Source of the DNA: an uncultured Bacillus sp.
Lineage (GTDB): Bacteria > Bacillota > Bacilli > Bacillales_B > DSM-18226
DNA length: 36,147 nucleotides
NCBI RefSeq assembly: GCF_946478885.1
Contig: NZ_CAMLDX010000028.1
Coordinates: 1 to 36,147, forward strand
Direction of reading: 5' to 3'
Positions within the stretch are counted from its first letter, which is position 1; each line of letters begins with the position of its first letter. The position numbers and the translations under genes are program-made. Below the pieces are notes generated by a model. That model had not been told where the DNA came from. It made no database searches and was given only the letters and a program-made list of their open reading frames with translations. This document shows, piece after piece, positions 1,312 to 4,164 of this stretch.

Positions 1312-2778
1312 TTAATTTTTTCTGACTGTTAGTTTGTGTTCTTCAATGGCATATTCACAATCAGCGACTCGTTTAATGAACATACGATCATGTGATACGA
1401 GAATGACTGTACCCTCATATCCTTTTAAAAAGCACTCTAATGCTTCAATACAAAAAACGTCCAAAAAATTGGTCGGCTCATCTAAAATGAGCACATTGTA
1501 TCTTCCTAGAAACAGTTGACACAATACTAGACGAATCGCTTCACCACCACTTACATGGGTGACGTTCTTGTTCAGATCGTTTCCTGTAAAATTCATGGAG
1601 TATAAGACGGAACGTATTTTACTTTCATTGTAGTCACTTCTTTTTTTAAAAAAACCAAGAACACTTTCCTCTTTATTAAATTGATAATCCATTTGTTCAT
1701 AGGCTCCGATAACAGCTTTAGGGGATAGGATGACTCCTTCTCCACGGTTTAAAATATGGCGAAGTAGGGTTGTTTTCCCTGCTCCGTTGCTGCCTGTAAT
1801 CACAATCGTTTTACCTAACGGAAATTGAAAACTTGCTTCTTTGAGCAGTATATTATCACCGGCTTTTAAAGTTACACATTCACCCATGATTGGGTATTTA
1901 TTGTGTATCTGAAGTGCCGGAGATTGCTGGAAACGGAGTAGGTGTTCCTTCTTTGGGACATCTATCCTTTCTAGTTGTTCTACACGCTTTTCAATCGCTT
2001 TTGCCGCACGTTGAACTGCCTTTTGGCCTGTGTCTTTCGATTTGGTCATGAACATTTTATTAGCCTTTGCTTTCGTTTCCTTTTTTGATATGTGACCATT
2101 CGCTTGCGTAATTTTATCAGCCTTTTTCTTTTTTTCCTCTGCCGCTTTTAAAAGATGATTCTTTTCTTTTATATAGTTTTCATGCAGTTCTTGTTGCTGT
2201 TTTCTCTGCCGCTTTTTTTGTGTAACGTAATCTGAATAATTTCCTGTGTATTCAGTTATATGTCCATCTTCAATTTCCCATATTTTCGTGACGAGTTTAT
2301 CTAACACGTAGCGGTCATGACTTACAAGTACGAGCGCTCCATAATAATAAGTCATTTCTTCGATAAAAAATTGTTTACCTAATTCGTCAAGGTGAGTGGT
2401 TGGTTCGTCAATCAATAAACCTTCATGATCGTTTGATAAAATTTGTGCTATCTTCAATCTTGTTTGTTCACCTCCACTAAAGTTTTCAATTTCAGTTTGC
2501 GGGATGGATAACTTTCCGATTAACTCATAATTTACTTCCCGATTAATTGGGGATGCTAATTGATCAAAATACGCAAAATCCGTAAACCGTCTTATATGAC
2601 CTTTCTCTGGTTGAATCTGACCAGCCATTAGTTTCAGCAGCGTACTCTTTCCTGCACCGTTTCTTCCAACGATCCCGATGCGATCAAATTGATGAATAGA
2701 AAGATTGGAAATATTTAATACTAATCTGTCTAAAAATGAAACTTCAATATTTTCTAATTCAAGACATACCTTTTCCAT
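1312..2778 (-). CDS. ABC-F ribosome-protection ATPase (Msr-like)
   Basis: This 488-aa protein has two ABC ATPase domains and no membrane segments, the ABC-F layout. Domain 1 shows Walker A GRNGAGKST (38-46), signature SGGEQ (101-105) and Walker B with LLIDEPTTHLD (121-131). Domain 2 shows GSNGAGKTT (329-337), SGGEA (410-414) and VLILDEPTNFLD (429-440). A long, very Lys-rich linker (about 185-300) joins them; in antibiotic-resistance ABC-F proteins this element enters the E site and reaches the peptidyl transferase centre to displace bound drug. Length matches Msr(A)/Msr(D) (about 487-488). It lies 30 bases after the rRNA methyltransferase gene, with GTGAGG as ribosome binding site, and is therefore the second gene of the leader-controlled operon. 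Macrolide protection is inferred from the leader peptide; lincosamide or pleuromutilin protection is also possible. Confidence 0.85.
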   Translation of the reverse strand: MEKVCLELENIEVSFLDRLVLNISNLSIHQFDRIGIVGRNGAGKSTLLKLMAGQIQPEKGHIRRFTDFAYFDQLASPINREVNYELIGKLSIPQTEIENFSGGEQTRLKIAQILSNDHEGLLIDEPTTHLDELGKQFFIEEMTYYYGALVLVSHDRYVLDKLVTKIWEIEDGHITEYTGNYSDYVTQKKRQRKQQQELHENYIKEKNHLLKAAEEKKKKADKITQANGHISKKETKAKANKMFMTKSKDTGQKAVQRAAKAIEKRVEQLERIDVPKKEHLLRFQQSPALQIHNKYPIMGECVTLKAGDNILLKEASFQFPLGKTIVITGSNGAGKTTLLRHILNRGEGVILSPKAVIGAYEQMDYQFNKEESVLGFFKKRSDYNESKIRSVLYSMNFTGNDLNKNVTHVSGGEAIRLVLCQLFLGRYNVLILDEPTNFLDVFCIEALECFLKGYEGTVILVSHDRMFIKRVADCEYAIEEHKLTVRKN

Positions 2779-2808: not shown

Positions 2809-3687
2809 TTATCGATCATTTAATCCGATTAATATATCTAAATCGACTGTAATCTCGGATGAAACACGATTAATAAACGACTCAATATCTGTTTTTTCTG
2901 CGTTCCAAGAAAGGGGAGACATTTGAGCTAAATTTATTAGTTCTACATGATTCAATCTTTTTGTATAACATAAATTAAAACCATCTTTTAACTTGAAATG
3001 TGTTTTAAAAAGCTCTACCGTATTGTCATTTTTATAAATCACCTTTTTGGAATCTTCGAAAAGTGCCTCTCGTAGCTCTTTTAAATAATTCGAGTGAGGA
3101 ACAACTTTGATGTAAAGACCATTCGGAACTAATATTCTTTTAAATTCCTTGTAATTTGAAGGAGATAAAATATTAAGAATGACATGAAACGATTTATCTT
3201 CTAATGGTGATTTTGCTAAATCACCTACAAGCCAAATTGGTTCTTTATAATTCTTGGCGGCCATGACAATGCTATCCTTTGAAATATCCAATCCAACCCC
3301 TGTTATAGCTGTACTCCTGCATTCATCTAGAATCCTGTGTAAATGTGAACCTTCACCACAGCCTGCATCAAGAATTAAAGATGGAAATGTAGGATGCTCA
3401 GCCAGATGTCCTTTTATCACCTTTGATATCTTCTTATGAAGCAATCCGTATAAGTTACTTTCCATAATGATTTTTTGCCTTGCTTCAAATAATTGCTTAT
3501 TGTAATTACTTTTAAAAGAATGAGTCATTAAATTTACATATCCTTGTTTAGCAAAATCAAAAGTATGATTTTTACTGCATTTTAGGCATTTTAAATCAAT
3601 AACCAGTAAAGAACCTTTACAATGTGGACATCTAAATGCTTCTACAAATTTTTTAAAAACTTCGACGCTTTTTATTTTTTTAGTCAT
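2809..3687 (-). CDS. 23S rRNA (guanine-N1) methyltransferase, RlmA(II)/TlrB-like
   Basis: This 292-aa protein matches the RlmA family. An N-terminal zinc site (Cys20, Cys23, Cys34 or Cys37, His41) is followed by FDFAKQGYVNLM, typical of RlmA. The SAM-binding motif I is LDAGCGEG (106-113) and the acidic motif is GLDIS (132-136). Family enzymes methylate N1 of G745 (RlmA-I) or G748 (RlmA-II, TlrB) in helix 35 of 23S rRNA, at the nascent peptide tunnel where macrolides bind; TlrB contributes to tylosin resistance. The start has AAAGGAAG eight bases upstream. It is first in an operon with the ABC-F gene, behind a leader with a macrolide-type stalling peptide. That context suggests inducible resistance rather than housekeeping. 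Exact target base (G745 or G748) is inferred. Confidence 0.85.
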   Translation of the reverse strand: MTKKIKSVEVFKKFVEAFRCPHCKGSLLVIDLKCLKCSKNHTFDFAKQGYVNLMTHSFKSNYNKQLFEARQKIIMESNLYGLLHKKISKVIKGHLAEHPTFPSLILDAGCGEGSHLHRILDECRSTAITGVGLDISKDSIVMAAKNYKEPIWLVGDLAKSPLEDKSFHVILNILSPSNYKEFKRILVPNGLYIKVVPHSNYLKELREALFEDSKKVIYKNDNTVELFKTHFKLKDGFNLCYTKRLNHVELINLAQMSPLSWNAEKTDIESFINRVSSEITVDLDILIGLNDR

Positions 3688-3710: not shown

Positions 3711-3741
3711 AAAAAAATCACAGGCGATCTGTCTGTGATTT
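3711..3741 (-). terminator. Leader terminator just before the methyltransferase gene
   Basis: On the minus strand AAATCACAG and CTGTGATTT (3741-3733 and 3723-3715) form a perfect 9-bp stem with a 9-nt loop, followed by a run of seven T (3717-3711). It ends 24 bases before the methyltransferase start codon. Since the promoter lies about 400 bases upstream, it sits inside the transcript leader and can only be a conditional terminator. Confidence 0.8.
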
Positions 3742-3843: not shown

Positions 3844-3876
3844 AAATAAAAGAAAGGCAGAATCATCCACCTTTCT
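3844..3876 (-). terminator. Second terminator inside the resistance-operon leader
   Basis: The minus strand reads AGAAAGGTGGA, loop TGAT, TCTGCCTTTCT, then TTTATTTA. The stem is 11 bp with two G-U pairs. It is the upstream member of two tandem terminator-like hairpins between the leader peptide and the methyltransferase gene. Confidence 0.65.
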
Positions 3877-4052
3877 AAACATTACATATTTTTACTATCT
3901 CTGAACAACGATAGTATCAAGAAAACACAACGTAAATTTGCTGAATGGGCAAAAAAATACGTGTATTTCTAATATGAAATGAAGATTATTAAAAAAGGAC
4001 AGACTAATCCCGTTACTCTGCATACACAAAACAGAGCCTTTGAACTATTCAA

Positions 4053-4097
4053 TTACTTGTTCAAAGTTGGGAATCGAAGTCTCATAGCATATGTCAT
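4053..4097 (-). CDS. ErmD-leader-like macrolide-sensing peptide (14 aa)
   Basis: The ORF encodes MTYAMRLRFPTLNK and is preceded by AGGAGG (4114-4109) at ideal spacing. As I recall it, the ErmD leader peptide is MTHSMRLRFPTLNQ, so 11 of 14 residues match, including all of MRLRFPTLN. The Arg-Leu-Arg core is the known macrolide arrest motif: with drug in the tunnel the ribosome stalls with Leu7 in the P site and cannot transfer to Arg8. Here codon 7 is at 4079-4077, and the stalled ribosome's footprint would cover the hairpin arm at 4066-4059. No erm gene follows; the controlled genes are an RlmA-type methyltransferase and an ABC-F protein. Confidence 0.9.
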   Translation of the reverse strand: MTYAMRLRFPTLNK

Positions 4098-4136
4098 TTT
4101 TTAATAATCCTCCTAAATATATTAAATACAGTAATC

Positions 4137-4164
4137 ATTATAGATTTTCCTTTAAAAAAGTCAA
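4137..4164 (-). promoter_or_regulatory. SigA promoter of the resistance operon
   Basis: Read on the minus strand, TTGACT (4164-4159), a 16-bp spacer and a consensus TATAAT (4142-4137). Transcription would begin near 4130, about 15 bases before the leader peptide's ribosome binding site. Confidence 0.8.

Follow-up and report, generated by a model that had tools for sequence, protein, structure and literature searches.

Leaders related to one another were tabulated in 2015 in front of mef(A), mef(E), mef(I), msr(A), msr(C), erm(K), erm(D) and ermJ (PMC4335068, cited here from excerpts). The same excerpts place erm(K) and mef(E)/mel under transcription attenuation, with two adjacent terminators at erm(K), and state that the 5' regions of mef(E) and erm(K) have no discernible homology beyond the peptide. 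MefAL is described as closely related to ErmDL (excerpts of PMC10314930), and ErmDL arrests the ribosome at Arg6-Leu7-Arg8 with telithromycin and erythromycin (excerpts of PMC8298421). Another macrolide leader, MIIQFIRYR, precedes the RlmA gene tlrB (yxjB) of B. subtilis, which is controlled by translation and transcription attenuation combined; the excerpted 2019 account also mentions 180 predicted leaders of tlrB homologues in which the motif is C-terminal (PMC6851288). Finally, an RLR leader of 14 residues precedes hflXr in the rli80-hflXr locus of Listeria monocytogenes, where ribosome-dependent transcription attenuation involves a terminator and an antiterminator (PMC6310831, 2018, from excerpts).

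The locus analysed here lies in a 36,147-nt stretch of DNA from an uncultured Bacillus sp. (contig NZ_CAMLDX010000028.1), which we call the window. It is like ErmDL/erm(K) of B. licheniformis in 11 to 12 of 14 leader residues, in the RLR motif and in having two adjacent terminators (excerpts of PMC8298421, PMC10314930 and PMC4335068), but its output is rlmA and an Msr-type ABC-F gene, not erm. Because the output is rlmA and abcF, we describe it as an ErmD-type sensor and attenuator and not as an erm operon. In mef(E)/mel, mef(A)/msrD, msr(A) and msr(C), leaders of the kind MTASMRLR, MTASMRLK and MTASMKLRFELLNNN precede efflux or Msr genes, and the mef(E) attenuator is terminator-based like the system proposed here (excerpts of PMC4335068 and PMC10314930). 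The tlrB locus is alike in its RlmA-family output, its leader of the macrolide-stalled kind and its attenuation (excerpts of PMC6851288), and differs in the sequence of the leader. The likeness to rli80-hflXr, by description with the Listeria RNA outside our alignment, extends to the RLR ORF, terminator and antiterminator, whereas the output there is a ribosome-splitting GTPase (excerpts of PMC6310831). Open-licence PubMed Central searches returned no description of an ErmD-type leader before rlmA-msr, and none of the RNA as one family across outputs. By its sequence, the window system belongs to a known switch type, to which it adds a new output pair; the larger RNA family at which it hints appears to be unnamed so far.

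The leader and its rlmA-abcF operon

The leader ORF has 14 codons (MTYAMRLRFPTLNK, followed by a stop) and runs on the minus strand from the start codon at 4097 to the stop codon at 4053. On the same strand it is preceded by the Shine-Dalgarno (SD) sequence AGGAGG (4109..4114) and by a sigma-70-type promoter, TTGACT-16 nt-TATAAT (4137..4164), which matches the consensus at 11 of 12 positions and stands 39 nt 5' of the leader start. Eleven of the 14 residues are identical to ErmDL (MTHSMRLRFPTLNQ, printed in the excerpts of PMC10314930) and 12 to the erm(K) leader (MTHAMRLRFPTLNQ, from Table 3 of PMC4335068, as excerpted). The earlier note had read the ORF as an ErmD-type leader with AGGAGG and a promoter, and these features bear that reading out. 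The MRLR arrest motif is present behind a strong SD; RLR is followed by FPTLNK, so the R/K-X-R/K motif is not adjacent to the stop codon, unlike in the tlrB type.

We scanned 84,980 genomes (contigs) for the codon pattern of MRLRFPTLN and found it in 74 places. At 72 of these, a short leader, mostly MTHxMRLRFPTLN, stands behind an AGGAGG-like site and aligns over the module described below, so we rejected a chance ORF as an explanation. The SD-led leader was absent at only two of the 74 places (L011 and L074), which are chance pattern matches and were left out throughout. Promoters with at least 10 of 12 consensus matches stand upstream in 65/73 loci, the window included, as compared with 4.3% of shuffles.

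The gene nearest to the leader starts 365 nt past its stop codon and encodes an RlmA-type 23S rRNA (G745/G748) methyltransferase of 292 aa (2809..3687, minus strand). After a further gap of 30 nt follows a gene for an Msr-family ABC-F ribosomal protection protein of 488 aa (1312..2778, minus strand). The ABC-F protein scored 733 bits with the NCBIfam model ABCF_Msr_all, above the cut-off of 680, and its best sequence match in the PDB was 5zlu (E 1.8e-129), which we take to be MsrE on the ribosome. The methyltransferase was assigned from profile matches, a PDB match and a tree. The best-scoring named model was PRK11088 (153.9 bits, below its cut-off of 303), followed by Erm(32), ChrB and MyrA, all below their own cut-offs; going by name, all four models represent G745 or G748 enzymes. 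The Pfam domains Zn_ribbon_RlmA (PF21302, 42.3 bits) and PF13649 (38.4 bits) both exceeded their cut-offs of 27, and the protein resembles the RlmA of PDB 1p91 (2.9e-28). Its family membership suggests G748 (or G745) as the target base.

On the plus strand, at 3-827, a glycosyltransferase frame of the macrolide family (MGT, 263.8 bits against a cut-off of 260) runs off the left end of the window. The frame and the rlmA-abcF operon are convergent, so the operon may have a third macrolide-related gene beside it.

Predicted lock and terminators of the leader RNA

We aligned the 72 loci and the window from the SD onward (alignment A1, 73 sequences). The sequences are alike over about 140 nt and diverge beyond, with a mean column identity of 75% over the 73 rows. 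The window module has an identity of 0.94 to its best copy before RlmA genes, 0.93 before ABC-F genes, 0.93 before Mef genes and 0.92 before Erm genes, the mean over the 17 erm-linked copies being 0.90. Both the RNA sequence and the predicted fold are common to the window and the erm-linked copies, which include the Bacillus loci L041, L051 and L057.

In the predicted fold, all of it on the minus strand, the RNA past the leader codons closes back on the leader as a lock of five helices. P1 pairs GAGGATTATTAAAAAA (4097..4112), which takes in part of the SD, with the anti-SD arm TTTTTTAATAATCTTC (3981..3996). P2 joins AGACT (4078..4082), within the MRLR codons, to AGTCT (4001..4005), and P3 joins TCCC (4069..4072) to GGGA (4008..4011). 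P4 pairs CTTTGAAC (4059..4066), overlapping the Thr-Leu-Asn codons of the leader, with GTTCAAAG (4038..4045), and P5 is the hairpin CTCTG...CAGAG (4016..4036). The best helix of the leader SD region has its partner in RNA about 80-115 nt past the second Met codon, with at least 12 bp in 60/73 loci and at least 9 bp in 70/73.

The 41 pairs of the lock are formed in 97.8% of cells in A1. Within this close set, covariation did not rise above shuffles (1 double-changed cell against 0.5; 194/500 shuffles as high). In A2, a structure-blind alignment of 105 diverged rows, 148 cells had changed on both sides of a pair, compared with 66.6 in shuffles (0/500 as high) and at most 99 in slid versions of the lock. 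The covariation score was 0.185, against 0.135 for shuffles and at most 0.092 for slid versions, and 86.3% of cells were paired, against at most 55.1% when slid. Pairs with a double change numbered 23 as compared with 13.3 in shuffles, but slid versions reached 22. The weakest of the helices is P3, of whose cells 69.6% are paired in the broad set. A model-fitted alignment, which leans to structure by construction, gave 326 double-changed cells against 101. The compensatory changes in the structure-blind alignment support the predicted lock. An RNAalifold consensus of A1 (31 pairs) pairs AGGAGG with a CCTTTT stretch instead; the longer P1 was preferred and tested. With Rfam 15, no gathering-score match was found in the window, and the element and four other loci gave only weak unrelated ones, the best being SNORA64 (E 0.041); a known Rfam family was rejected.

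Between the lock and rlmA, the sequence contains two adjacent predicted intrinsic terminators on the minus strand, each a hairpin with a T tract: T1 (AGAAAGG...CCTTTCT, 3851..3876) and, just before rlmA, T2 (AATCACAG...CTGTGATT, 3716..3740). Both recur whether the locus leads into Erm, RlmA, ABC-F or Mef, simple patterns finding T1 in 69/73 loci and T2 in 67/73. A hairpin of -12 kcal/mol or better followed by a T tract was present in 66/72 regions, compared with 13/216 shuffled ones, and a terminator-like hairpin of -10 or better in 93/102 regions of the broad set, compared with 4/102. Two segments of the lock are complementary to the terminators: segment A, CTCTGTTTTGTG (4025..4036), the 5' part of P5, to the 5' arm of T2, and, with weak support, segment B, AGTCTGTCCTTTTTT (3991..4005), to the 5' arm of T1. 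The A:T2 pairing is slightly better within a locus than between permuted loci (3/30 permutations as low), and 20/67 loci pass the 1st percentile of shuffles. The B:T1 pairing is no better within than between loci (26/30 permutations as low); its mean is -11.4 kcal/mol, against -6.8 with shuffled arms, and 2/69 loci pass the 1st percentile. Of the cross pairings, B:T2 is also better than shuffles (-8.9 against -5.2) and A:T1 is not (-6.4 against -6.8).

Equilibrium folding was carried out for the 63 loci in which both terminators were located, with masks for a stalled-ribosome footprint, for a covered SD and for control positions. The A:T2 antiterminator beats T2 in 3/63 loci when the RNA is free, in 22/63 with the footprint at the stall codon, in 50/63 with the footprint plus a covered SD, the shielding of the SD being an assumption, and in 2/63 with a control mask elsewhere. 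At the window, the probability of T2 falls from 0.66 to 0.00 and that of the antiterminator rises from 0.00 to 0.90. An antiterminator of T1 was not preferred at equilibrium, even with the SD covered (5/63 loci; 0.02 at the window). Since T1 shows no equilibrium switch, a kinetic effect of segment B on T1 is possible, as a guess.

We consider it likely that the rlmA-abcF operon is under ribosome-mediated transcription attenuation, with the leader as the sensor. In drug-free cells, the segment 3981-4011 would lock the leader SD and the arginine codons through P1-P3; segment A would be unavailable, T1 and T2 would form and transcription would end short of rlmA. When a macrolide or ketolide is present, a ribosome that had begun translation before the lock closed would stall with Leu7 in the P site and Arg8 next to be added, and would keep P1-P4 open. 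This would free segment A for the 5' arm of T2, while segment B would perhaps pair with the 5' arm of T1. With T2, and perhaps T1, disrupted, RNA polymerase would read into rlmA and abcF. The basis of this mechanism in our analysis is sequence, conservation, covariation of the lock, recurring terminators and a predicted T2 switch; the drug-dependent stall and read-through we infer by analogy with ErmDL, erm(K), mef(E) and hflXr. Among the points against it, P5 forms locally and would not be opened directly by a ribosome stalled on the leader, and in the folding model the footprint by itself tips the balance away from T2 at fewer than half of the loci (22/63). The covariation at shuffle level in A1, the slid versions that nearly equal the count of double-changed pairs in A2, the T1 result at equilibrium and the modest A:T2 and B:T1 pairing also speak against it. 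The earlier account of control was right about the ErmD-type sensor but overlooked both the fold of the RNA and the pair of terminators on which the proposed mechanism rests.

Control could instead be mainly translational, with constitutive read-through and drug-stalled ribosomes freeing the SD of rlmA as in erm(C). The predicted window fold pairs the rlmA SD region with upstream RNA, and both kinds of attenuation act together at tlrB of B. subtilis (excerpts of PMC6851288). Yet terminator hairpins with T tracts, needless for an SD lock alone, recur before every output (66/72; 93/102), and mainly translational control seems unlikely to us.

Outputs of the RNA in Bacilli

At 71 of the pattern loci (L001, at a contig end, was left out of output counts), the first gene called downstream encodes an ABC-F protein (27), RlmA (18), Erm (17) or a Mef-like transporter (9). 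These family names rest on representatives and not on every member: NCBIfam was run on 6/10 and 3/5 representative proteins, and the remaining members were assigned by BLAST to those clusters. Three Erm representatives are above the cut-off of Erm23S_rRNA_broad; for the transporter representatives, Mef(A) is the best model for one and Mef(B) the second best for another, both below cut-off. In 16 of the 18 RlmA loci, the next gene encodes an ABC-F protein, as in the window, and within the stretch examined it is absent at the other two, L025 and L067. At L050, the ABC-F gene lies 1,232 nt past the leader motif with no other gene called between.

One Bacillus sonorensis contig carries two ErmD-type leaders about 8.4 kb apart (L028 and L041), each with its own Erm gene. 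Short ABC-F frames stand behind intact leaders at L008 (179 aa), L064 (233 aa) and L153 (255 aa); these are probably decayed outputs whose sensor was kept.

We built a covariance model of the module, R1, and ran it over 299 genomes from the order to which the L003 genome belongs; 98/299 matched at E 0.001. In the window, with filters off, the element itself scored 173.5 bits, its antisense 30.7 bits and other matches at most 26.7 bits. Because chance matches and the element's own antisense reach these scores, we counted matches from 50 bits upward. Of 115 matches analysed in the order, 11 scored less than 50 bits and do not enter the counts; three loci already collected and 10 antisense matches, each overlapped by a stronger match on the sense strand, had been set aside. 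The remaining 104 matches, together with those three loci, come from 94 genomes. Their first genes encode mainly Mph-like kinases (27), ABC-F proteins (21), Mef-like transporters (19), HflX (19), RlmA (6) and Erm (6), so that 98/104 stand before one of six families; the rest are a weak ABC-F match, an OpuC-like protein, a DHA2 transporter and a short-chain dehydrogenase (one each), with no gene at two, the OpuC-like and DHA2 labels being assigned by eye. For the Mph representative, Mph(B) was the best model at 405 bits, below its cut-off of 615. The HflX representative is above the cut-off of the HflX model, but this model draws no distinction between HflXr and ordinary HflX. At 103/104 matches, R/K-X-R/K is present in an in-frame leader (97 at first reading and six more at a second), L251 having none.

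Some individual matches depart from this picture. At L164, a 136.9-bit module whose leader frame runs on to 35 codons precedes the gene of an OpuC-type substrate-binding protein (by eye), one of the few outputs without a tie to macrolides. Weak matches at L251, L255 and L257 (37-51 bits) stand before short-chain dehydrogenase genes, with leaders that lack R-X-R, and are possibly a distant cousin or chance.

Thirteen genomes contain two copies of the module: in nine they precede two different families of the six, in two the same family, and in two one or both outputs are unresolved or of another kind. Among 398 genomes of the class, R1 matches 68 at E 1e-6. In all 24 loci L342-L365, among the class matches listed, tblastn gives a match to a member of the six families, its position and strand relative to the element not being checked singly and L342 coming from a genome already seen; a simple leader search (one strand, strict SD) found the leader in 8/24. 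A tree of 161 module rows requires 47 changes of output, between the least possible of 5 and a shuffled mean of 100.1. Most of its forks are weak, and the well-supported branches force 1 to 5 changes per output.

On this basis, we lean towards reading the ErmD leader as one case of an undescribed and widespread RNA family, a modular macrolide sensor with a transcription attenuator that spans roughly 350-450 nt between promoter and gene. In Bacilli, this part would have been combined repeatedly with six or more unrelated outputs (Erm methylase, RlmA methylase, Msr-type ABC-F protector, Mef-like efflux, Mph phosphotransferase and HflX-type GTPase), and some genomes would use two copies to drive different defences. 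The earlier note had proposed that the sensor was joined to a different output. One sensor-attenuator RNA does precede differing resistance genes (71 loci; 98/104 matches), but this is not peculiar to the window, and related leaders were already in print. With regard to the lack of homology stated in the excerpts of PMC4335068, R1 finds related RNA before Mef-like genes in Bacilli, those with MTASMRLR leaders included, the scan being by order and class and not by named streptococcal, staphylococcal or enterococcal copies.

The element may answer to a cue other than macrolides, such as other ribosome inhibitors, amino-acid supply or general translation stress, and lincomycin as well as erythromycin induces the Listeria hflXr gene behind its RLR leader (excerpts of PMC6310831). 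As against this, 98/104 matches precede one of six families with a link to macrolide resistance, which for HflX runs by way of its relative HflXr, and 103/104 have the in-frame R/K-X-R/K leader; we give a different main cue little chance.

RlmA lineages and a possible shared control part

The earlier note had suggested a search for this leader upstream of RlmA-type genes in other Bacillaceae; the pattern scan over the 84,980 genomes yielded 18 loci with an RlmA gene besides the window. In 15 of the 18 genomes with such a locus, no second RlmA was found with the zinc-ribbon model. The L052 genome has a second RlmA gene behind a MIIQFIRYR leader, so both kinds of sensor are present. We calculated a quick tree of 77 RlmA proteins, whose inner forks are soft; the near-duplicates L009, L062 and L067 were omitted, and L285 is counted as ErmD-type although its module lies about 1 kb before the gene. 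All 23 rows with an ErmD-type module, the window included, fall into one group of 36 rows with a support of 99, the remaining 13 rows having other or no recognised leaders. Five rows with RYR or RFR leaders (L283, L303, L305, L306 and L314), the tlrB type, fall outside this group, and R1 has no match at their genes; a tlrB-type leader was therefore rejected for the window. Since these rows are outside the group and have no R1 match, two RlmA lineages appear to use two different macrolide sensors. Because the leader precedes rlmA at 18 other loci and all 23 rows share the group with support 99, the pairing of leader and rlmA is, as judged from these sequences, old and kept.

The closest RlmA to that of the window (2809-3687) among those seen, 80% identical, is from Hazenella coriacea of the Thermoactinomycetaceae (L025), where it has no ABC-F partner. 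This likeness hints at transfer between families.

The reading that the leader is a relic, the operon having once stood behind an erm gene or having been placed by chance behind an ErmD leader and now being constitutive or silent, is very improbable: decay does happen, as the truncated ABC-F frames at some loci (L008, 179 aa; L064, 233 aa) tell, but the window copy retains promoter, SD, leader, lock, both terminators and their spacing at 173.5 bits, and the pattern scan shows rlmA behind this leader at 18 further loci, with the 23 leader-linked rows in one group.

In the rlmA-msr operon, a target methylase and a ribosome protector stand under one sensor. Macrolide-inducible genes have so far been described singly, each with its own leader. 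Should leader, lock and terminators prove to be one inherited RNA, a single control part would be common to resistance by methylation, protection, efflux, drug phosphorylation and perhaps ribosome splitting, and one model would recognise it in a genome. Inducible resistance would then be predictable from sequence, also for ketolides, at which ErmDL stalls (excerpts of PMC8298421), and the evolution of sensor-output swapping would become testable.
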